A stretch of DNA of 64,000 nt, taken from contig OZ024884.1 in the NCBI GenBank assembly GCA_964017185.1, forward strand, positions 16,506,548-16,570,547, given 5' to 3'. A model generated the notes under the pieces. The model was not told the DNA's origin and did not search any database. It worked only from the letters and a program-made list of their open reading frames with translations. The position numbers and the translations under genes are program-made. Below, in pieces: positions 6,401-38,599 of the stretch; within the stretch, counting starts at the first letter, position 1; each line of letters opens with the position of its first letter. This DNA comes from Rugalucina vietnamica (lineage: Eukaryota > Mollusca > Bivalvia > Lucinida > Lucinidae).

Positions 6401-9400
6401 AATCCTCGTCGGTCGTCGACAAGCCGTCAATTTCTGTATATTCTATCGCTATTTCTTCCTCTGTGACAGATTCATCACCTATAAATAGAAACAAAGGGAT
6501 GTAACTGTTTGACAGAATTGTGTGCTAAAACTTGAAACAAAGGGATATAATTCTACACTGCTCATAATATTTAAAGGAACACTGCTCTATTTTCCATATA
6601 TTGAAATATAAAGTGCCCAAACTTTGACCCACATTTAAAGGCATGTTCAAATGATACTGGTTGTCAGCTTGTTCTGTACAATTTGATTAGTGCCTCAAAG
6701 TTTCTGAAAACAGGAAAATTTAAAGCAGGTACTGTTCTGCTAAGGTCCATGGGCTTTTTTTTGCATTTTTTGAATACTGTGAATTTTCACCATTTTTCAA
6801 AAAGTCTGAGCGTTAGAGGACATTTACTTTGAAACCGATCTTCCTGTCAAATTGATTCTGAAATGCATTCTGGCAAATAATGGCAGTGTCTGATTCAAAA
6901 TTTCTTGCAACAGCCATGTTTTCATCATTCTGAAAAAATGCACAATTTTTGCAAAATCAAAACTTTACAAAAATCGCTCACTGGACTTCAGCAGGGGATT
7001 TTCCCTGTCAAATTTTCTAAAGAAAGTTACGTCGAGTCACTGATGAAAAAGTAGCGGTGATCATGCTTTAGCTTATTTAAAAAAAAAAACTTCTTTGCCA
7101 AAGCCAAAGTTTTACAAAAATTAAATGACACATTTCTCCAATCAAATTGCCATTGGATAGATTAAACAAAAGTGTTAATACAAGTGTGGTCTTATCATGT
7201 TTATTACATGACGTTATCCATATCAACATTATAATTATGAAAAGTATATAATAAGTATACAAAGTGTCTATAAAACGGCATGTCTAGTACAGGTCACGGA
7301 CATAAACATGAGTAACGTCAGAAATTTACCGTTAGCAATCTGAATGGCGTGTCTGTTCCTATTAGTCAAATGTATTTATTTCATTCATATTTCTAACGGT
7401 AAATTTCTGACGTCACTGTCATGTTTTACTTTATTTACGCGACCTGTATGTAGTCTAAAGCGGAAGGCAATAGTTTTACTGTGCTAAAGGCATAGTGCTG
7501 AATACTGTAAGTTTGGTAATTTTTGTCTAACCTTTATTTTGCCATTTCCCTATTCCAAAATTATCCAAGCATTTGCAAGCAAGTTAATTTGCCGTGTTAA
7601 ATGCTACAGCATGGCTTTATAGGGAGCGCGGTGGCATAGTGGTAGAGCATCGGACTCCGAATCGAGAGGTCCTGGGTTCAATCCCCACAGGCGGCACCAT
7701 ATTGTGTCCTTGAGCAAGACATATTAACTCCCTACAGTACTGGTTAAACCCTGGAAGCGTTGGCTCTGTTTCGACATGACTGAAAAATTGTTGACTGGGA
7801 TGTTAAGCCTCAACACAAACAAACAAACAATTTACTGGCGCAGACTTGGAATTAAGGAGGAAACGTATCATGAGCATTATTTTGTGAAAATTAAGTTCTC
7901 ATGAAGATTTCCAAACTTACAGTGATACAATAGACTGGCTCCAGTCCTTAAAACATTTTTTTCATAAAGTGTTCAGTGCTAGTCTATTTCAAGTACTTGT
8001 AGCTAATCTACTTCTGATGGCTCAGTTTTAAGGACTGGTCTAAGTAGTATCTCTACAAACCAAGATCCTGGTTGGTAATTAATCACTCCCTGCTGTCAGT
8101 CAAACCTGTACTGACCATTTTATTGCAGTGATTATTTATTTAGCAGGAATCCAATACCCCAGCTGATAAGCACCATAAACCCATTAAGTGTGTATTTCTT
8201 CTGGCCATTCTGTCAGAACAGTGTTTATATTACACACATAGAGCATCAGAGATAAAAATTCTGTGAAATGGATGAAATAACTTTAGGAGCAGCTATTGAA
8301 TATGGACTGCAAAGGAATGGTTACACAAAACTTAGGCCAAATCAAGAGACAATTTTGAAACAAGTTTTGAGTGGAAAAGATGTCTTGTTTTGTTCACCTA
8401 CCGGTAGTGGAAAAAGCTTGATTTTTGAGGTTGCACCATTTGCATTTCACTTAATAAGTGGAATGAAAAGCTGTTGCATTGTTGTGTCTCCTTTAGCTGC
8501 CTTAATGAAATCAAAGGCTCAAGAACTGAGACTTAAAGGAACAGTGGCTGTGTATATACGGGAAATGAAGACAAATCCCACGGACGAGGATGCTCCGTTG
8601 AAAACAGACATTGTAGCTGGCATTCAAAGTGGAAAGTTTGAAATTATCTTTGCCAGTCCAGAAACATTACTGGAGAGTCACAGGGATGTCATGTTACAAA
8701 TATCCAAATCTGGTTTCCTGAAAGCCATTTTCATCGATGAAGCACATTGTATAAAGAAATTGTAAGTATAACAATTGAATGGGCATTTCCATAATTTATC
8801 TAAGTGCCAGTTTTAAATTGAGCCAGGGACTAATTTCTCTCCCGGCGCTACCCCCCCCCCCCCCCCCCCCCATCTGGTGAAGTATTGTCAATATGGCGAA
8901 TCACCAGTAAACCATTCAGATTTAATGGTATTACTTTAAACCATTGATGTCTAAAAATCAAGTGTTCAGCATATTAAAATGGTTTGAGCATTAAAATCAT
9001 GACTTAAAAGCGAACTCAATCTGTCTCACTGATACGATTCTATCGAGTACCCACAATTTACGCTCAAACATAAAAATTGGCGCATCACAAATTCGGAGAA
9101 GGCAAAAAAAAAACCCAAACAATTATGTGCATGTAACTTTGCGCTATTCAAAGCTTTAAAGTTGACAGTTAAATTAATTAGTTTATTTTCTATGTGACCA
9201 AACATAATAATAATAATAATAATAATAATAGAATGCTTAAAAAGAATTGTAAGATGATATCTAAAATTCCCTTAAAAAGATACAGGTAGGCAATGATCAA
9301 GAAAAGCCGCAATTAGAAAGAAATTCCCACTCCAAAAAACGAGGTGGGAAAAACTAAATTGACATTTACAAACAGCTAGTAAGCCTAGTGAGCAGCTATT

Positions 9401-12400
9401 TCCCCAAAGCGGACCACTCAGTTACTCTAACTTAAAAATAAAACTATGAAAAGGTACATAAGGTTCAAACAGCACAAAATTGACTCCAAAACATAAAACA
9501 AATGGAACCACAACAAAAGTGTGTATTACATGATTGTTTTTGTATGTGGATATTCATACTTTAATTTAATTATGTATAATAATAAATGTACATCATATCT
9601 TTTTCAGTGGAAAGCCAGATGTTACTGCAAAGAAAGCAGCATACAGGCCGATGTATGGGTGTCTTGGGGAATTGCGGTCTCTAGCCGGACCTAATGTGCC
9701 TGTTGTTGCCTTGACAGCAACAGCCTCCTTGGAAACACGGAAAATGATAATGAAAGACCTGTGTATGGCTGACAAATCATTTCAACTTGTCGTTGATCCA
9801 AATAAAACAAATATTAAATATTGGGTATTTGAAACGGGGAGAGGACGGGAGGACATTTGTGATGACTTCGACTGGCTAGTGGATCTCATTAAGAGAAAAG
9901 GAAAAGAAACACCACGAATGCTTGTGTTCTTCCGGAAAATTGACCATATTTCTGATGTGTTCGAACACTTAGCTACATCTCTTGGTGAGCAAGCATATGT
10001 GAATTTTACACCTGAAGGACCTAACGATGATAGAAACAGGCTGTTTGATATGTATCATCTCAAAACAGATGAAGAAGTCAAGGAGACAGTCTCTGCATCT
10101 TACCAGGACCCTGAGGGTGTGACAAGAGTGGTGCTTTGCTCAACATCTTTCAGCATGGGACTCGACGTTAAGGGAGTTAATTCTGTAGTGCACTATGGGT
10201 CATCAAATGACCTAGATGATTATATTCAAGAGTCTGGTCGTGCTGGACGTCATCCTGATGAACAATGCCATGCAATAATAATCAAATACAAACGTTGTCT
10301 GTCCAGCAAAAACATTGCCACAGGTATGAAAGAGTACATTAATTCAAAGACATGTAGACGAAAGATTCTTCTGAAGCCTTTTACAACAACAGATTTAACA
10401 CAATTCCCTGGTAATAATTTACATGATTGCTGTGACATATGTACATTAATGTGCAGGTGCCAGTGCCAATGCGCCTATGAAAGCTGTGAATGTGCAACAT
10501 TATGTTCTTCTCCTGAATCAGATGTTTTTAGCAGCATGATGAACCACCTCAAATATGGAGTTTCTGATACTGATGTTGACTCCAGTTCATCAGATGAAAG
10601 TGATTTTGAAGGTCATATTGCACGGAAGCCTCAGGTTTTGACATACTCCACTGATGAAGACTAACATTATTAAGTGAGAATAGCTTTAAAAGTAAATGAA
10701 ACAGTCTTTTATGGGCCATGGCTTGAAATGCTTTGATTCTTAATTACATCGACTCAACCTTTGTATGTGCTTTTACTGCCTTGAATAAAATTGCATGATC
10801 TACATGTCTTTAATCGTTGTCATTTCAAAATTTTTGTAAAAATTAAGTAAACAATTACAATGCAATGTTTCGTGCTTACACCTATAACTGCTATAGTAAA
10901 ATGCACTCTGTGCAACTAGGCATTAATTTAATAAAATCTAGGAAATACATGTATATGCTTAACCACTGCACCAGTCCGCTCCACTTAAGAAATATCATGT
11001 GAAATTCTAGATCAGAGAAGACAGAAACACTGACTTCATATGCGCCGTATCATGGGAAAACCAACAATGTGGTTTTGAATAGGTCCGATACAATTCGGTC
11101 TGTGTAGTCACAGAAGATAGCTGGAAGCTAGAAATTTGGTTTTAAAAAGTGGGGGAATTGTACTATCTGTGTAGCGAAAACAAAGGCGCTGATCAGCTTC
11201 GCAATCACAATGCATATGATCTGCCCCTTTGTTTTCACATATGCAAAATGTTGGTTTTCTGATTGCGCCTTTTCCTGATCTTTGCCTACTTGTAACTTTT
11301 TTTTTCTCATGACACGGCTTACATATTTTGACACTCTGTTTGCTGATTCTTCAAATTATGTCTGATGGGACATGGCGCTTAGTATCTTATCGACAAATGA
11401 AAAATTAAGCATGCAATCTTACCTTTTAATCAATGCAAAATTTAGATCACCTCGTTATGTTTGAATAGTCACATTCTATGAGATATTTTATGTAAACTTA
11501 TTGTTTCATGTACACTTTGTACATTAAAAGAATCACATGACAATATACCAAATGACGCACTAAAGAGTTCTTCTCTAATCAGCTACTGGTAGTCCAAAGC
11601 ATAATTCCAGTCAACTATCTTTTGAATCAACTATTCTTAAACACTATTTATAAGTCTTAAATGTCCTCACATCCTAAGTTCAGTTTGACGGTTTGAAGCG
11701 CATTTTTCAAGCACTATCATACAGAACAAGCACAATGCCAAACTCATAATGAGTAATCATAGAAATGTTTCTTTGAGATTTTGGTCATGCTCCTTCCCAA
11801 CCAGTCTCTGAAATCCTCCATGTCCATATCTCGTAACTGGTTTGCGTCTATCGTTCGGAATGCAGAGTGAGCTCTACCAGGGATGGTGGCAAATACCTGT
11901 CTTGTCGTGAATTGTCTCACCAAGGCATATATGTCCCCTGATACATCCGCAAACGTGTGTTTGCCAGAAGGCCTGATCACTTTGGAGGTGTTGTCATAAT
12001 TTTTCAGGATACTTTCTGTTTTCATGGCACTGCGACTTACTCTTGAAATTGTTTTCTGTGTGAATACTCCCCTATAACTGTGGGCTTCTTCTTTAAATGT
12101 TTTGTTGCAGTGCTCGATGTCTAAGTCGTTAGGATGATTGCTGTCACTTTTCCCCCTATGATTAACCACCCGGTTCCAGATGAGTCTGTGTGCAAGCCTT
12201 TCACTGAGCAGCACCTTAGATTGTAAAATGGTTTCAAGCATACCATATGCATACTTTGTGCATTTGAAACGTTTATAGTACAGATACATGATTGAGTCAA
12301 GACGTAACATCCGTTCTCCATCTCCAAGCTTGATTGCATCATCATGGTCCAATTTCAATAACCCTAAAGTTAAAGCAGTCTTTGAATAATTAAGGATGTA

Positions 12401-15400
12401 GTCACTATTATCATCTAGCTTATTTGTACTCCTTTTCCCTTTTACATATTTCTTAATTTGGGTCACTGTTTCTGGTTTACAGGCAGAAGTTTCCTCATGG
12501 TTTCTTAATGAGCTGATCAGTTTGTATTTCTTACCACATTTCTGACATACAATATCATCATTGGACTGGTAACCAGACTCAGGGATTGTCGGTAGATCCG
12601 TGTCGGTGAATGAATGGACAACACGTGTAGCTTCTGACATAATGTATTCCAGCATTTGTTTGCTGTCACCTATATCTCCATCATATGTGTTCTGTTTGGG
12701 CGTTCCGTCCAGTGAATCAATACCAAAGTGTTTCATTGCTGCATTTACTATATAAGCTTTAGTAAACTTATCAACAAGTTCTGAACTGGCATAGTAATTG
12801 CTGGCTGGATCTTTTGACACATTCTTTGCATTTATCGTGTTTCTGGCTGCATAAAGGGTCCCTGTATCTTTGGACGATGCGGTACTATACAGAACTTTCC
12901 ATATAACCTGGAATTTGAGACAAACAATGTAAAATTGATTGTATTTATATTTTATTTATCTCTAGTAACAAAGCCATAAACAGACCTGTACATAATTTTA
13001 TTCAGTTTGCTTTTTCAGACAGTACCGGTCTAATTTGCATATATTTAGTCATGGCTGCAGGTTTAAGTCACAGGCTATGACATTTTCAATAAAATGGCTC
13101 ATCCATGAAAATTAACTGTTATTATAGTATGCATATACTAAAATTTGTTAATACATAAGTATGTGCATATTTCACAACTGAACACATAATATCTTTGTGA
13201 AGATGAGATTCTAAAGAGCTGATGATTTTGAGCTGAATTTACATTATGATCAGAAAATGTATCAGTAATGTGCATAAGTTACAGGTACCTGTAGAAACTC
13301 TGCCTGATTGTGGAACTCTTCCATTTTTGGCACCAAACCTTCCAATCTCTTAGATGGAGTTCGACCATTCCGCTTTGCCGACTGAGCCTGTTTGTGGCGC
13401 TCAAACGTTAAGTAATCGCCTCCACTGAGTATTTTCACTGGCTTTTTCTGCCAGTCGTCGTCCTCACTTGTCCCGGGAACATACTTATGTATAAAGGTAC
13501 AAATGTCTGTCATGTCCTCATTAAACTGTTCGTTCTTCTGAAGAACGCCCATATTAACCTGAAACATAAGATTTCATAATTACCAGTATATTAATGTATT
13601 GTGTGGTACAGATTATACATGTATACATATAATCTTAAGTAAATCTTCAAATCAGTAAGTGATGCATAAACCATGCAGGATGTGATCAGATGGTATGTTG
13701 CTTAAGGATATAAAACATTTTATGTGCCAAAAATAAATGAGTATGAAAATTCAAATGCTAATAGTAATACGTTTTAGAAGTCAAAAATCGATGAAATTTT
13801 CCAGTTTGAATAATAAAACTAATAATTTATAACTAAATGGCATTCTAACATTTATGAGCAACATTAATTTCAGTCACATTGAGCATGAAAATAGTTTTTG
13901 TAAACCCACACAAACTTTTACAACAAGCTAAACAATTACTTAAGCCTAAGTTTGCACATATCAAAATATGCTATTTTTGCATGTGTCTGACATTCCATCT
14001 AGTTGGTTGCCTGCTTTAGATAAATTTAACTTCTAACAATGCATAGAGCGTCTTGTACCTACCCTTTGAGACTTCTTGGTGGTGTCTTTCATATTCTTGT
14101 GTTCAATGTGTTTTGGCAAAACAACTTTGAATTGCGCAAAACAAGGCAATAGTTCAGTGATCTGAGTGGCGACAATGAAGGCGAATTCTTGAATCAACTG
14201 TGTCTGTTCGAGATGACCGGGCACAAGTTCCTTGAACTGTACTGTTTCAATGTTGTCCTTTGGTTTGGAGTCATCCAAGTGGTTTCCAGATACCCGATTT
14301 TTATAGGCGCATATTTGGAACATGTGTTGATCCTTGTTTTGGTTGGTAAGCGTCATTTGGCGAACTTTCGTCCTCATATCTACATTGTCGCCAACAAAGT
14401 AGAATCCTGGATGCATTGTGGATTTGTGTCTTTCAAGTTCAACCTCCGCGTCTGCCTGTTCAAACATGATGGTGGCTGCTGTCAACACATCATCGCCCAC
14501 GATGTCAGATTCCCTTTGAAGTGCTTCAATCTTGTCATACATCTGTTTTTCTATTTGGGTGTCCTCTTGAACAGCTGCTGACCATTGCTGCAAATCATTT
14601 GCCCAGGAACTGCTGAAGTCGTCTGCCATGGAAAGGGTAGCCATATATCCAAGACAGTCATTTGTAACACTGAGACGTCGAAATACTGATTTCTTTGCGC
14701 CACCTATTAGCAGTATTAAACTATTCAGCCGTTGAATGACATTCATATGGCTGTTGTATAATGATACCAACTTACAGGCTGCACTGACCAGAGCCGGAGT
14801 TATTGACTGTTCAGTTTTTCTTGTGTTTCTATTCATCTGTTTTCTGTTGGTTGCTGCACTGACCAGAAACTTCCAAAACACAGGGGCCCTCTTCTCAAAT
14901 TCACTTGACAGAACATTCCAAGACACTGATGATAGATTTTCTTCAGTTTTTGAACTCAGAACTGGGAACTGGTTTTGACTGCATAAACCCTTTATTTCAG
15001 TCTGTATTTTCTCAGCAAAAGTGTCTTCTACTGTTTCCCTCCATTCTTCATTCATAAGGTCACAGAACTCTTTGAGTCTCCCATTTAACAAGTGCCGTAT
15101 CAAACTGGTCTGATAGGTAGATGCATCAAAACTTTCTGTGACATTTCCAGTTGTTATCAGTACCTAAAATTGAAGACAAAACACAGGTTAATCCATGATG
15201 TTGGTTAAAATACTGATCAAAAAGGCAACCTGCACATTTCTAACTTTATTCCCAATTTGCTGACCAGCAGTTCCTGCTCAAAGTATGGACACTTAGTTGT
15301 GGTAAAATGGTTGTGTACCATAAATAGTTGAATAGAACATTTAACTATAACAAATGAAATAAAGATGTCTTAGCATGACTCAAGGGCTGAACCAGTTCCA

Positions 15401-18400
15401 AATGTTGTTGTTGTTTTTTTCTCTGCAATTTTATTACATAGGTTATAAGAGCAAACAATGCAGACTCAGATGAGATGCTGCAACTGCGCTTTTTTAACCT
15501 CCTGAAAATAGCATTTGAGCAGTCGCGTCAGAAAACCAACAATTTGGGTTTCCAACCAGGTCCGACAAAGACCTGCCTGTACTGTCACAGAAAAACGCTA
15601 GAATCTTGAAACTTTGGAAATAAGTACATGTAGCAGAGTAATAGAACTATCCGTGTAGCGAACACAAAGGTGTTGCGCAGCCGGTCTGCGTCTTTGTTTT
15701 CGCATATGGGAATTGTTGGTTTTCTTATGCGGCAGCTCATTTATAACATGCATGATGTGAGCCTAAATAAAGATCTATTGTTGACCGAAAAAGGCTATTT
15801 CAGGTGAAAATGTATTACCATATACTACGCAATTTTAACTAAACTGGCCTTCGAAGCAATAGCTTCAAATTTTGTCTAAAAATCTAGAAAAGTTTATTCT
15901 CAGAATACACAGTCATATAGAATGGATGTTCAGTCTGTGCACCAGTGGCGCCGGTATTCACTCTTGTGCAGAACAAAGTAGAGCAGAGTTTCTCTTGATA
16001 TGACTTTTATGATACACATCAGCTCTATTCAAGAGCAAATGCTTATCATTGCCTACTTTTACCATTATGCATTTATGTATTATCTGGCACAGTTGCACTG
16101 TCTGACCATTAACCTCTCCTTGTCGTGTGTTAGGCATTTGATATGATCTTAGTAGGCTGGAAAATGAAAGTAATTGTTGAAATAAGATCAAATAGTTGAA
16201 TGTTAGTTTTTTCCACAATTTGACCTACTGGAAATGTTATGAGAGTATACAAGCCAAGACACAAGAAAACTGGACTTCGGGATTTCAGACCAGGTCTGAT
16301 AGAAACTTGCCTGTACAGTTGCAAAAGTAGCCAGAACCTAAAAACTTTGCATATAAGTAGCAGAAGAATTGTAATATCCTAGTAGCAAAAATAAAGGCTC
16401 TGATCAGCTGTGCAGTACTGCACAACTGTTCTGTGCAGGCAAAACCCCGATTTTCTCATGACATGGCTCAGTTTATTTCCATACCTTTGTTTTAGCATGT
16501 TTATCATGGTCCACCTCCATTGATTCTGCTGCTGAACCGAAACGACCATGGTCGGTCTTGCTCTCCTTGTTGTCTGGTACTGGGAAAACATTTTCGAAAG
16601 GAAGTCTCTTTTTGCTGGTTTTACCATGTGTTTTTTTCAAGGATTCTATTGTTTTTTCATAATTTGCCTTGTGTCTGTGGACATTTATCTGTAGTGTAAG
16701 AAGACTTCGGTGACAGTTTCTGCACAGACTATCCGCATGTAGTAGTGGGGAAATTTCAATTGAGAGAAGTTTTTCAACTAAAGCACATGCCTCAGATTTC
16801 TTTTCATTTTTGAACAATCTTACGCGATAGCTGTCTTTTTCTTCTCTTTTGCCACACAAAATACACAATCGTTTTTTTGTTGTTGGAGTATACTGTATGT
16901 TAATATATTCTTTAGTGGGTGTACAACTCAATGCTGCCATCATGCTTTATGACAACAGTTCCAGTGATCATGTTTAAAACAGATATATACAATAATAATT
17001 TGCCAACACTAAATCCCTATTATATATTCAGAAAATATCACTGGTACTAAGTATTATCACAATTATCACAATTTCAGAACTGTAGCCAAATTTCATAATT
17101 TTATCCACAGCCACTATCAGAACATTTCTTTCCCTGTATCCTGAGGTTTTACTACACAAAACTTTCCATTGATAAGGAATTAAGTGCAACATGTGTATTC
17201 TACCATTCACTTCCAAACCGTTATGTAAACATCCATGCTGAGAGAGGATCATTAAGTGGTCAGTGGGCATCAGATAAAAGTCCATTAAAAACAAATAAAT
17301 GTCAATCAAATCTGGCAAACCTTGGAAGATAAAATGCGAGTTAGACCAGTCTGAAACATCTGATTAGAAGAAGATAGCATTTGTTGATATATGAAGGAAT
17401 TTCACTATAAATGATTATGCATTATTTTAATTATCTTTTTTTTTCAAAACAACCATGTTTCAGACTGTGGCCAGTCTATGATACAAGAGCTTGATTATAT
17501 AGAACTACTTGCCTATGACATAGTCGGGTGGTAATAGCTTGGTGTGACCTGGGTACGCGGGTGGCGGCGGCAGTGAGTCATGCATGAGCAGGTTAAGGTG
17601 GCCTAGAGAAAGGAAAGGATAAGGGTACACTCGTTATCCAGAGACAACAAACGCGACTGAGAACGAACAACTGGAATGCTGATAAAAATTAAAATGGGTC
17701 TTCCCATGAAAAAAAAAAAACAAAATACAGGTAAAATGAGCCTACATCATGAGCAAACCAACAATGTGGTTTCCTAACAGGTCCGACACAAACCGAGCTG
17801 TACAAGCACAGAAGAAGACTAAGAGGGTGGTAATTTTTGATTTTAGAAAGTAGAGGAATTGTAGTATCCATGTAGCAAAAACAAAGGAGCAGGTCAGCTT
17901 CGCAGTAGTAGCAAAAACAAAGGCGCAGATCAGCTTCGCAGTTACTGCGAAGCTGATCTGCACCTTTGTTTTCGCATATGCAAAATGTTGGTTTACTTAT
18001 GATGCGGCTCAGGTAATAAATACCTGTCGGGCAACAACTTTCCACAGATCATAATCCAATCAGTAAAAAGTTGTTGCCACACAGGTATTTGAATACCAGT
18101 GAGTCTTGTACTCATTTCATCTGTGTTGATTTTCTCAGGCGTGGTTACATGTTATCTCTGGTTGACCAGTGTGAAGGAAAACTAATCACATCAGGAAAAC
18201 ATGTCCGTGAAACGTATACCCCCTTAAACCCCACTTTTATATAGCAAAACAGGGGTTTGCACAGGGGTATACCTAATTTTCTTATTTTTGATCCAAAACA
18301 TAAATTGAAATTCTCAATTTTTACAGCTGAAAATATTCTCTGTATATTGCATGGACATGTTTTCGTAATGAAAATCATACACGGGAGACAATACCTTGGT

Positions 18401-27400: not shown

Positions 27401-30400
27401 TTGACGTTCGAAATTCTAAAGTCTGTTCCAAGGCCAAGTTCAAAATCGACATGCCTTTCTATCGGTCGGGACGGCAATATTTTCTCCCAAAAGAACAATT
27501 TTGAATGAAGACGATATGTTTTAAGTCTCCCGCTTTTACAGTCTGCCTACAGCAAGCCAGTGATAGCTTCTATTTATTGAGGGAAGTGAGTTTTCTGCTT
27601 TTGAAATTTTCAAGATGGCTGTCGCATGAAGATCCGTTTTGCTCTATTTTCCTTCCGCTGGCTAAAAAAATTTAAAGCAATGTAGACAAATACAGTGTAA
27701 TGAGACAAAGTTGGAATTATAAGGAATGAATTATTATTTTTGTTGATTTTATCGATGTGTAAACTCAGGCGAATCACTCACAAACTTTTTCATAAAGCCC
27801 TTCGGGCTTTATTTAGTTTGTGAGTGATTCGCCTGAGTTTACACATCGATAAAATCAACAAAAATAAAATTCATTCCTATAGTAACACGGATTGGATAGC
27901 TAACACGCAAATTGGCTTGGATCCCAGCAAAAGTGTTATAAAGAGGTTGAGGTGTATTTACATTCATTGTCAATAGCTATGGTCATGTTGGGACGGTCAG
28001 ATATCCTACCCACACTAACCCTGGGCAAGTACTCAAGAGGCAGATTACCAGTACTAAATGCACATTTTCTCACCACTAACAAAATTTAATGCTCTTCTTG
28101 ATTAGCAAAAGAGGAAGATAATCCAAAGAATTGAAATTTTCTATAACTAATTCAAGACTTAAAAGGCTAAAAGCACTTAAAGATGCAATAAAAAATTATG
28201 CTAAAATCCAAGATATTCCATTGCAAGATATTCCATAAAAAACAAAACAATTTTGGAATACGATAAACATAATTCTTAGTTTGTATCAAACTATCAGTAC
28301 CAATGCACATGCATTTAGTCTTCTATGATGCAATTTGAGCAGCTTCATGAGAAAATAGATTTCTGCACGGTGCGAAAACAAAGACGCAGATCAGCTGTGC
28401 AGTAACTGCACAGCTGATTAGCACCTTTGTTTTTGCTATGCAGATAGTACAATAAAAATCAATGCCTCTTGAATCCTAAATGACAAGCTTTTGGCCTTCT
28501 TTTGTGGCTGTACAGGCCAATTTGCGTCAGACTTGGTTGTAAAACCCTCAGACCGAAATTCTCATGACAGGGCTCATTTGTTATGACGGATGCAGCTGCT
28601 TATAAATCTTGATGTACAAAAAAAAAAGAAAGAAAGAAAAGAAAGCCTTCTTTTAGCACCTGAATGATGTACACCATTATAAATCTCTCTCATCAGGATA
28701 ACAACATGTCCATAACGTACATGTAACCTCTTTGAACCCCACTTTTATTAAGCAAAACTGGGGTATGGAGGGGTATACCTATTTTTCTTATTTTTGCTCC
28801 ATAACATAGATTGTGGGTACTCATTCGAACCGCCTCGCACGTGTACCCACAATGTTTTAAGCAAAACAAAAATATGTTTCTTTTTTTTCCTAATAAAAAA
28901 TCTGTATATTGCATGGACAAGTTTTCGTAATGATTGTTGGGGTCCAAGCCAATAGCTTATTTCTGTGTTACTTAGCTATCCGTGTTATGACGAGAGAAAA
29001 ATGTATAGCTAAAGAAAAAGAGGTCTTTTAAAAATGACCATTTTGGGTACACCAATGATCAGTGCTATATCCTTAATCACGCTTTAATGAAGCATGCTCT
29101 GAAGAGGTTTTGGTGTATGAAAAGCTACAAATATAGGTTGGTGTATGTATATAAATATCTATATTGCAATCAAATGCAAAAGCACTGCCTCTGACCAATA
29201 AATATTAAAATTTTGATATATACAGGTCAACCTCATTATAATGCTATCTTTGGGGTCCATGAAAACAGACTGTGTTATAAGTGAACTGTGTTATAATGAG
29301 GTTATTTACAATAGACATATAGCAAAATAATTAATTTGGGAGCCATGACATGGCCGTGTTATATTGAAAACCGTACTATAGTGAGGCGCATTATAATGAG
29401 GCTGAACTGTATAATATTGTTTTTGTTTTGTTCTCTTGTAATCCATGGGAGTGTACAAAATAAAATAAGTGCCTTCTTTACAATCAGATTTGTTTCCCTT
29501 TACAGTAAGCTGGCAATGTATCCTAAAAGACAATACTATAACAGCCAATAACCATTTACTTCAATGATTCCCTCCCAACATGACTGAAAAAAATTGACTG
29601 GGACGTAAGTCATATAAACCAAACCAAACTTTAATGAAGATGGCAGAACTTTTGAAATGTTCAAATGACAAAGAATGATTTTTGTATGTTACAAAAATTA
29701 AGCATGTGATCCTTTTCCTTTTGGCCAATGTCTTTGACAAAGAAACATTCTAAGTAAGTAAAGTAAGTAACTTCTTTGAGACCCATTTGGTTATATCCAA
29801 TCATCCATGGGGCCCTCAAATAAATCCACATTCTTCACATTATAAAGTACCATTGCCATTATTATAATAACTTATCTTGGTTGGTTGAGTAATTGTTTAA
29901 CCTCCCAATCAACAATTTTTCGAGAAAACCAACAATCTGCACATCCAAAACCAAAGGCGCAAATCAGCTTCACACACAGTATCTGCAAAGCTGATCAGCG
30001 CCTTTGTTTTCGCTACACGGATAGAACAATTCTTCTACTTTCTAAATCCAAAATTTCCAGCCTTAAGCCATCTTCTGTGACTGTACTGGCCGCTTTGTGT
30101 CAGACCTGGTCGGAAACCACATTGTTGGTTTTCTCATTAGGTGGCTCAATTGCATCTATCTTACCCAACTCGCTGTAAAGGCTCCACGTCTTCGGAGTCA
30201 CTAGTTTCACCCATTTCGTCATCATGAAATAACTGGATGCCTCCATCTTTGTGATGTCGCATTGGCACTGGTGGAATGTCGGCCTCAGAGGGCTGTACAG
30301 ATGCTACCGACACATCAGCTTGTAGTACTGGCTTGATCGGGTGTGGGACATTGTTATCTGTGACCTCAGGGTGTGGGATACTGTTTTCAGTCACCCCCGG

Positions 30401-33358: not shown

Positions 33359-33598
33359 TATGAGCCTGTGCATGAGAAAACCAACAATTTGCATAGGCGA
33401 AAACAAAGCCGCAGATCAGCTTCGCGGTGACCGCGAAGCTGATCAGCGCCTTTGTTTTCGCTACACGGATAGTACAATCACTCTTCTACTTAAATGCAAA
33501 ATTTCAAGCCTCTAACCATCTTCTGTGACTGTACAGGTCAGTTTGTGTCAGACCTGGTCGAAACCCAAATTGTTGGTTTTCTCATGCACAGGCTCATA
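33359..33598 (-). mobile_element. Family A MITE, copy 17
   Basis: Nearly perfect reverse copy with TATGAGCCTGTGCATGAGAA termini and a CTTCGCGGTGACCGCGAAG hairpin. Confidence 0.88.
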
Positions 33599-33765
33599 TT
33601 AGGCTGCACAAAGCGCATGAACATAGCGTTTCCTCAAAATACAATATGAGAGTTCAGGAGAAAAATTGCCTTGTTCATAATTATGCACACCACAAAAAAA
33701 AAAGCAAAGACACAGATCCGTCACAGCATAATAAAGTGTGAAGCTGATTACAGCCTTTGCTCTGC

Positions 33766-38360: not shown

Positions 38361-38599
38361 ATGAGCCGCCTCATGGAAAACCAACAATCTGCATAGGCGA
38401 AAACAAAGGCGCAGATCAGCTTCGCGGCAACCGCGAAGCTGATCAGCGCCTTTGTTTTCGCTACTCGGATAGTACAATGCCTCTTCTACTTAAATCCGAA
38501 ATTTCAAGCTTCTAGCCTGCTTCTGTAGCTGTACAGGCCGGTTTGTGTCAGACCTGTTCGGACACCACATTGTTCCGTTTTTCCACGAGGTGGCTCAAA
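38361..38599 (-). mobile_element. Family A MITE, copy 19
   Basis: Reverse copy with a perfect CTTCGCGGCAACCGCGAAG hairpin; one of the youngest-looking. Confidence 0.88.

Follow-up and report, generated by a model that had tools for sequence, protein, structure and literature searches.

Helitrons, which have neither terminal inverted repeats (TIRs) nor target-site duplications (TSDs), encode an HUH nuclease together with a Pif1-like helicase, and hAT elements have as a rule a TSD of 8 base pairs (bp) and a hAT transposase domain. Within Academ, the nuclease of AcademX is of the XPG type, and AcademH is reportedly present in both animals and fungi, to judge by the title of Kojima 2020 (Mob DNA 11:15). 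A further study gives TSDs of 9 or 10 bp for AcademH and of 3 or 4 bp for AcademX, lengths that seem to be tied to the encoded helicase and nuclease, respectively (PMC10045372). A RecQ helicase is named in Academ in another source (PMC3627910), and a third attributes DEAD and Helicase_C domains found in the transposons of fungi to AcademH, KolobokH or Helitron (PMC10799480). KolobokH encodes a RecQ helicase and is reported from fungi alone (PMC9587614), the Kolobok superfamily having TTAA-specific 4-bp TSDs. Here we analyse a 64,000-nucleotide stretch of the genome of the bivalve Rugalucina vietnamica (contig OZ024884.1, positions 16,506,548 to 16,570,547; hereafter the window), which contains a 9548-bp element in which a gene for a RecQ-like helicase faces a gene for a DUF6589 protein. 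We consider it highly likely that this element is a complete, recently mobile cut-and-paste DNA transposon of the AcademH type, with DUF6589 as an Academ-type transposase and the RecQ-like helicase as its partner.

The element, its ends and its copies

The limits of the element and its flanking duplications, in window coordinates, are as follows.

7931..17478, no strand: whole element, a probable AcademH-type transposon of 9548 bp, delimited by its TIRs and by three further copies
7923..7930, no strand: left TSD TGATACAA, 8 bp, the same letters as 17479-17486
17479..17486, no strand: right TSD TGATACAA, 8 bp, read from the sequence
7931..7946, strand +: left TIR TAGACTGGCTCCAGTC, from self-comparison and genome matches
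17463..17478, strand -: right TIR GACTGTGGCCAGTCTA; an identical end is present in the C4, C10 and C13 copies

As inverted repeats, TAGACTGGCTCCAGTC and GACTGTGGCCAGTCTA match at 14 of 16 bases, so that the element has the TIRs expected of AcademH. The original prediction described TIRs, an 8-bp TSD and two complete, convergent, intron-bearing genes without stops, all of which the sequence and our gene models bear out. The duplication of exactly 8 bp holds for the window copy; as a rule for the family it does not, since the commonest TSD, in the C10 copy and in miniature inverted-repeat transposable elements (MITEs) with the same ends, is 9 bp, with varied sequences. The family, not the window copy, thus falls within the 9 or 10 bp described for AcademH.

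Mobility was assessed in the host genome, which measures 1.09 Gb. Allowing up to one mismatch, the 16-base end matched 962 places (495 + 467), against 27 (14 + 13) for a reversed control. The 403-amino-acid frame of DUF6589 exon D revealed three further copies at 99–100% identity and without stops, and helicase exon 2 recovered the same four copies, the window's included. DNA identity of the three to the window is 99.6, 99.5 and 98.9% over 4.2 kb. Within exons C and D, silent differences from the window number 2, 2 and 5 codons and amino-acid replacements 1, 1 and 3, numbers too small to test for selection. These near-identical copies and the excess of end matches over the control uphold the prediction of a DNA transposon.

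Both ends were read only in the window and C10 copies. For the C10 copy the printed flanks give a TSD of 9 bp, AGTGCAATA, and a segment of 466 bases or more near the right end of this copy shows no resemblance to the element of the window. In the C4 copy the right end is present and similarity starts at element base 106 in the stretch read, and the C13 copy likewise has the right end, its left end not being found at the expected position.

Both exact ends also bound 16 MITE places of 194–221 bp (control 0), and at two of these (C5:50392426 and C13:45633126) the outer 80 bases at each end are, by eye, the same or nearly the same as those of the window element. TSDs were counted for 13 of the 16 and were exactly 9 bp in eight, exactly 8 bp in two, 9 bp with one mismatch in two and absent in one. 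The full count covers 21 end pairs, made up of 11 from L001–L020 (up to three mismatches per end) and 10 of the 16 exact places, three of the 16 being already among the 11; the eight looser pairs have mismatches at one or both ends, and several of the 11 come from a related subfamily whose end differs slightly. Among all 21 pairs, 12 have a TSD of exactly 9 bp, two have one of exactly 8 bp, four have 9 bp with one mismatch (two counted by script and two, L011 and L012, by eye) and three have none. A 9-bp TSD, GTCTTTAAT, was also read by eye at L037, an internally deleted relative. Other segments with the same ends, for which the original prediction had proposed a search, therefore exist as one full-length copy (C10) and the 16 exact MITE places; the C10 copy and all but one of the 13 MITE places read have a TSD, with one mismatch at two of these places. 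Loci lacking the element, the second check proposed there, were found for a MITE and not in clean form for the window copy: the MITE at L002 lies inside a dispersed repeat, empty relatives of which (in the window and at L015) carry one copy of a sequence close to the target, and these relatives are continuous through the junction, with small insertions beside the target variant.

Copies of a dispersed repeat were also seen within the non-coding parts of the window element (window 11037-11263, 15512-15740 and 16280-16436), and the same repeat matches the window at 985-1208, 29923-30137, 33372-33599 and 38376-38585. To the left of the element, the stretch at about 7620-7700 resembles, by eye, a short interspersed nuclear element derived from a tRNA (GGTGGCATAGTGGTAGAGC...); ARAGORN reported no tRNA genes, this stretch included.

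The helicase and DUF6589 genes

Gene models were predicted from open frames and splice sites, and Pfam was applied to the open frames that surround the exons of both genes, which are convergent and open throughout.

8268..8761, strand +: helicase exon 1, with Walker A and DEAH box; DEAD domain (Pfam)
9608..10664, strand +: helicase exon 2 with stop; Helicase_C (Pfam) and a Cys-rich, RecQ-zinc-like tail (by eye)
16485..16943, strand -: DUF6589 gene exon A, with start codon and, by eye, a CxxC...CxxC zinc-finger-like N-terminus; from open frame and splice site
14063..15163, strand -: DUF6589 gene exon B, with motif D412; from open frame and splice sites
13289..13558, strand -: DUF6589 gene exon C, with motif D568; PF20231 below the cut-off
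11744..12907, strand -: DUF6589 gene exon D with stop, motif E875 and a C2H2-like finger below the cut-off; PF20231

The helicase model joins exons 8268-8761 and 9608-10664 across a GT-AG intron and encodes 516 amino acids (aa). Exon 1 matches the Pfam DEAD family (59.9 bits, 3.2e-16) and exon 2 matches Helicase_C (48.9 bits, 8.6e-13). With NCBIfam models, exon 1 yielded recQ (7.1e-24) and recQ_fam (5e-22) and exon 2 yielded recQ_fam (4.2e-25), each single exon scoring below the whole-protein cut-offs of NCBI. Comparison of exon 2 with solved structures gave RecQ, RECQ1 and WRN helicases (E from 3.1e-13). The sequence SPTGSGKS forms what we take to be the Walker A motif, and under motif names assigned in the same way the RecQ set is complete by eye. 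The RecQ models and structures thus agree in pointing to a helicase of the type named in Academ.

A RecQ helicase is equally a property of KolobokH (PMC9587614), and on this ground the locus could be read as a Kolobok element. The TTAA-specific 4-bp TSDs and the reports from fungi alone given in that source are, however, at odds with the 8–9-bp TSDs of varied sequence observed here, and we rejected this reading on the TSDs, leaving it a negligible probability.

The DUF6589 model (exons 16943-16485, 15163-14063, 13558-13289 and 12907-11744) encodes 997 aa, with GT-AG introns that are all in phase 0. Exon D scores 83.5 bits against Pfam DUF6589 (PF20231), and exon C reaches 26.4 bits, just short of the cut-off of 27. 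The zinc-finger-like N-terminus in exon A perhaps binds DNA. Three acidic residues stand in motifs, D412 in exon B, D568 within GGDYLTFER and E875 within DLDIEHCNK. Their conservation was followed through loci L021–L050, the 30 best matches of the exon D genome search, with places counted by hand (repeated loci merged, near-identical copies kept separate). Among the distinct places reached by the alignments, D412 is kept in 11 of 11, D568 in 16 of 17 and E875 in 20 of 22, and the latter two could be read in distant families as well. The three conserved acidic motifs fit a DDE transposase, which may be of the DDD/E type of Academ. Because these motifs are conserved and PF20231 occurs in two kinds of TIR element (the second is described below), DUF6589 is very probably the transposase, as the original prediction had proposed.

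Between the second and third motifs, the window family and L050 have a zinc-finger insert that is C2H2-like and scores below the cut-off. At the same position, the DUF6589 protein at L047:1459-2682 contains a PHD finger that scores 30.6 bits against a cut-off of 24, and one is also suggested at L049:1483-2715, with 20.8 bits, below that cut-off.

Pairing of the two genes across the host genome

We compiled 72 DUF6589 places by hand from searches giving 64 and 73 matches (both lower bounds) and 51 helicase places by hand from 63 matches; the matches dropped in either case were further pieces of listed places. A helicase place lies within 20 kb of 31 of the 72 DUF6589 places and is convergent with its neighbour in every one of the 31, which supports the predicted partnership; two of these pairs use one common helicase. 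With independent placement the expected number of pairs is 0.13, an assumption that copies of one element do not satisfy. The pairing extends to families that are just 25–30% identical to the window's proteins. In 26 of the 31 pairs the identities of the two partners to the window could be compared and were found to correlate (rho 0.89), a descriptive value given that the copies are related; the other five pairs came from the list made with profile hidden Markov models, which gives no identities, and each copy of a family was counted by itself. In addition, four RecQ-like copies with stops lie about 6.5 kb apart at G000:C6:11686177-11706497, in an arrangement like a tandem array.

These data bear on two other explanations. 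The helicase could be a passenger without a role in transposition, given that many MITEs move without carrying it (action in trans being possible) and that the role we assign to it is predicted from sequence. The pairing has, however, been kept across diverged families and is convergent throughout, the partners have diverged in parallel and the RecQ motifs are complete, which together indicate selection for the helicase within the element; we therefore regard a passenger as unlikely. Alternatively, host RecQ and host DUF6589 genes might have been enclosed in a non-autonomous hAT-like element, whose TSD length the window copy, taken by itself, displays. Against this, diverged families keep the two genes together in convergent orientation, 9 bp is the TSD length seen most often, and no hAT domain appeared among Pfam matches at E up to 1 when six frames were scanned. 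The 9-bp TSDs and the repeated pairing led us to discard this explanation, which we find scarcely credible.

For a transposon of the AcademH type, a mechanism can be outlined in which the zinc-finger-like N-terminal region of DUF6589 probably binds the ends, and the D412-D568-E875 core would cut them out and join them across a staggered cut in the target, usually of 9 bp. Repair of this staggered cut would leave the TSD. The convergent RecQ-like helicase, a conserved travelling partner, probably opens the ends or the target DNA, or aids repair.

Giant-ORF relatives and comparison with known systems

A second kind of DUF6589 element is represented by L057 and L058, which are single intronless open reading frames (ORFs) of 1662 and 1604 aa, respectively, within a range of 1604–1664 aa for these giant ORFs. 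L058 scores 43.1 bits against DUF6589, above the cut-off of 27, while L057 scores 24.2 bits, below it, and 27.5 in another search of the same place. Counterparts of the acidic motifs (DNxDF, LDMxLY and DHxxExxN) can be recognized by eye. Six copies of the L057 family have the ends TAGTGGAGTCCC and GGGACTCTACTA, and in all six the TSD is exactly 3 bp, within the 3 or 4 bp given for AcademX; ends were also looked for in the L058 element and not found. At their C-terminus the giant ORFs show the pattern EEADTK, DIHSxDTDV, GFHAxxGxDxTG, which resembles pieces of host XPG/FEN proteins (EAEAQCA, DxD, GCD) by eye only. As a neighbouring gene XPG was not seen either, PF00867 being present at three genome places, taken as host genes, all of them more than 20 kb away from every DUF6589 place on our list. 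Searches of viral contigs (with exon D and the giant ORFs) and of prokaryote genomes (with the giant ORFs) gave pattern matches only and no confirmed relative. Three long frames with DUF6589 scores of 28-42 bits, at G000:C10:37867040 (3030 aa), C10:53649899 and C11:51722527 (1998 aa), could be additional elements of the giant-ORF type or represent a third kind; they lie outside the listed matches of the giant-ORF query, for which 29 of 562 candidates were scored.

The host thus has two classes of TSD, each with its own accessory part, and these match the two Academ lineages. It could be argued that the elements combining DUF6589 with RecQ form a separate superfamily that resembles AcademH only in its helicase and TSD length: the literature searched contained no mention of DUF6589 and no link between it and Academ, and the TSDs seen are of 8–9 bp, none of 10 bp. 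Yet the helicase type and TSD length agree with AcademH as published, and the same genome has DUF6589 joined to a nuclease-like tail and 3-bp TSDs, as described for AcademX (PMC10045372), so that we hold a separate superfamily to be very unlikely. Just as improbable in our judgement is a broader scheme, a DUF6589 superfamily parallel to Academ whose core was paired once with a helicase (cuts of about 9 bp) and once with a nuclease-like domain (3 bp), and in which the exchange of C2H2 and PHD inserts might allow some families to read chromatin for targets.

Several observations nonetheless weigh against assigning the element to AcademH. Its TSD in the window is 8 bp, and a 10-bp TSD was seen in none of the window copy, the C10 copy and the 21 MITE end pairs. 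The comparison with Academ proteins was by description only. Exons A and B gave no Pfam match above the cut-off, exon B being the one that holds D412; the families in which this residue was read all have an identity of about 42% or more in that region. E875 is replaced by K in L031/L039 and by D in L029, where a gap stands at D568. No clean empty site of the window copy was found in the genome, in which only its own two flanks matched well (weaker flank matches represent a dispersed repeat and mostly end at the TSD). Forty-one of the 72 DUF6589 places and 20 of the 51 helicase places are unpaired; at least 12 of these 41 are giant-ORF places, again with 29 of 562 candidates scored. Finally, the giant-ORF tail was not recognized as XPG: phmmer and profile searches of the PDB were negative, as were Pfam with E values of up to 10 and, in a weak test, an hhalign comparison with a single 85-residue piece of host XPG.

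On its architecture, TSD length and motifs, the element would nevertheless represent a new family of the AcademH type. The original prediction had set Academ apart by different partners and shorter TSDs. This distinction is not supported, because a helicase and TSDs of 9 or 10 bp are described for AcademH (PMC10045372), a RecQ helicase is named in Academ (PMC3627910), and the TSD of the present family is mostly 9 bp. Similarly, the suggestion of an undescribed or little described lineage applies at most to this particular family and to the DUF6589 label, as elements of the AcademH kind have already been described. These results suggest that DUF6589, a Pfam family hitherto without an assigned function, is a transposase; genes annotated with it in animals and fungi may thus be transposons or remnants of them. 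The presence of both TSD classes with one core domain in a single genome also makes testable the idea, put forward in PMC10045372, that the accessory enzyme is tied to the length of the cut.

Among helicase-bearing elements, Helitrons share with the window element the status of a transposon with a helicase, and differ from it in that the window element has TIRs and TSDs. KolobokH is likewise a DNA transposon with a RecQ helicase, but with TTAA 4-bp TSDs, a transposase of another family and reports from fungi alone (PMC9587614). AcademX finds its parallel in the sister elements, since the L057 family and L058 have DUF6589 and the L057 family also has TAG...CTA ends; unlike the window element, these consist of one giant intronless ORF with a nuclease-like tail in place of RecQ, and have 3-bp TSDs. 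The closest likeness is to AcademH: although the window copy has an 8-bp TSD and none of 10 bp was seen, both are DNA transposons with a helicase, of RecQ type in Academ, and a TSD of 9 (or 10) bp (PMC10045372, PMC3627910).

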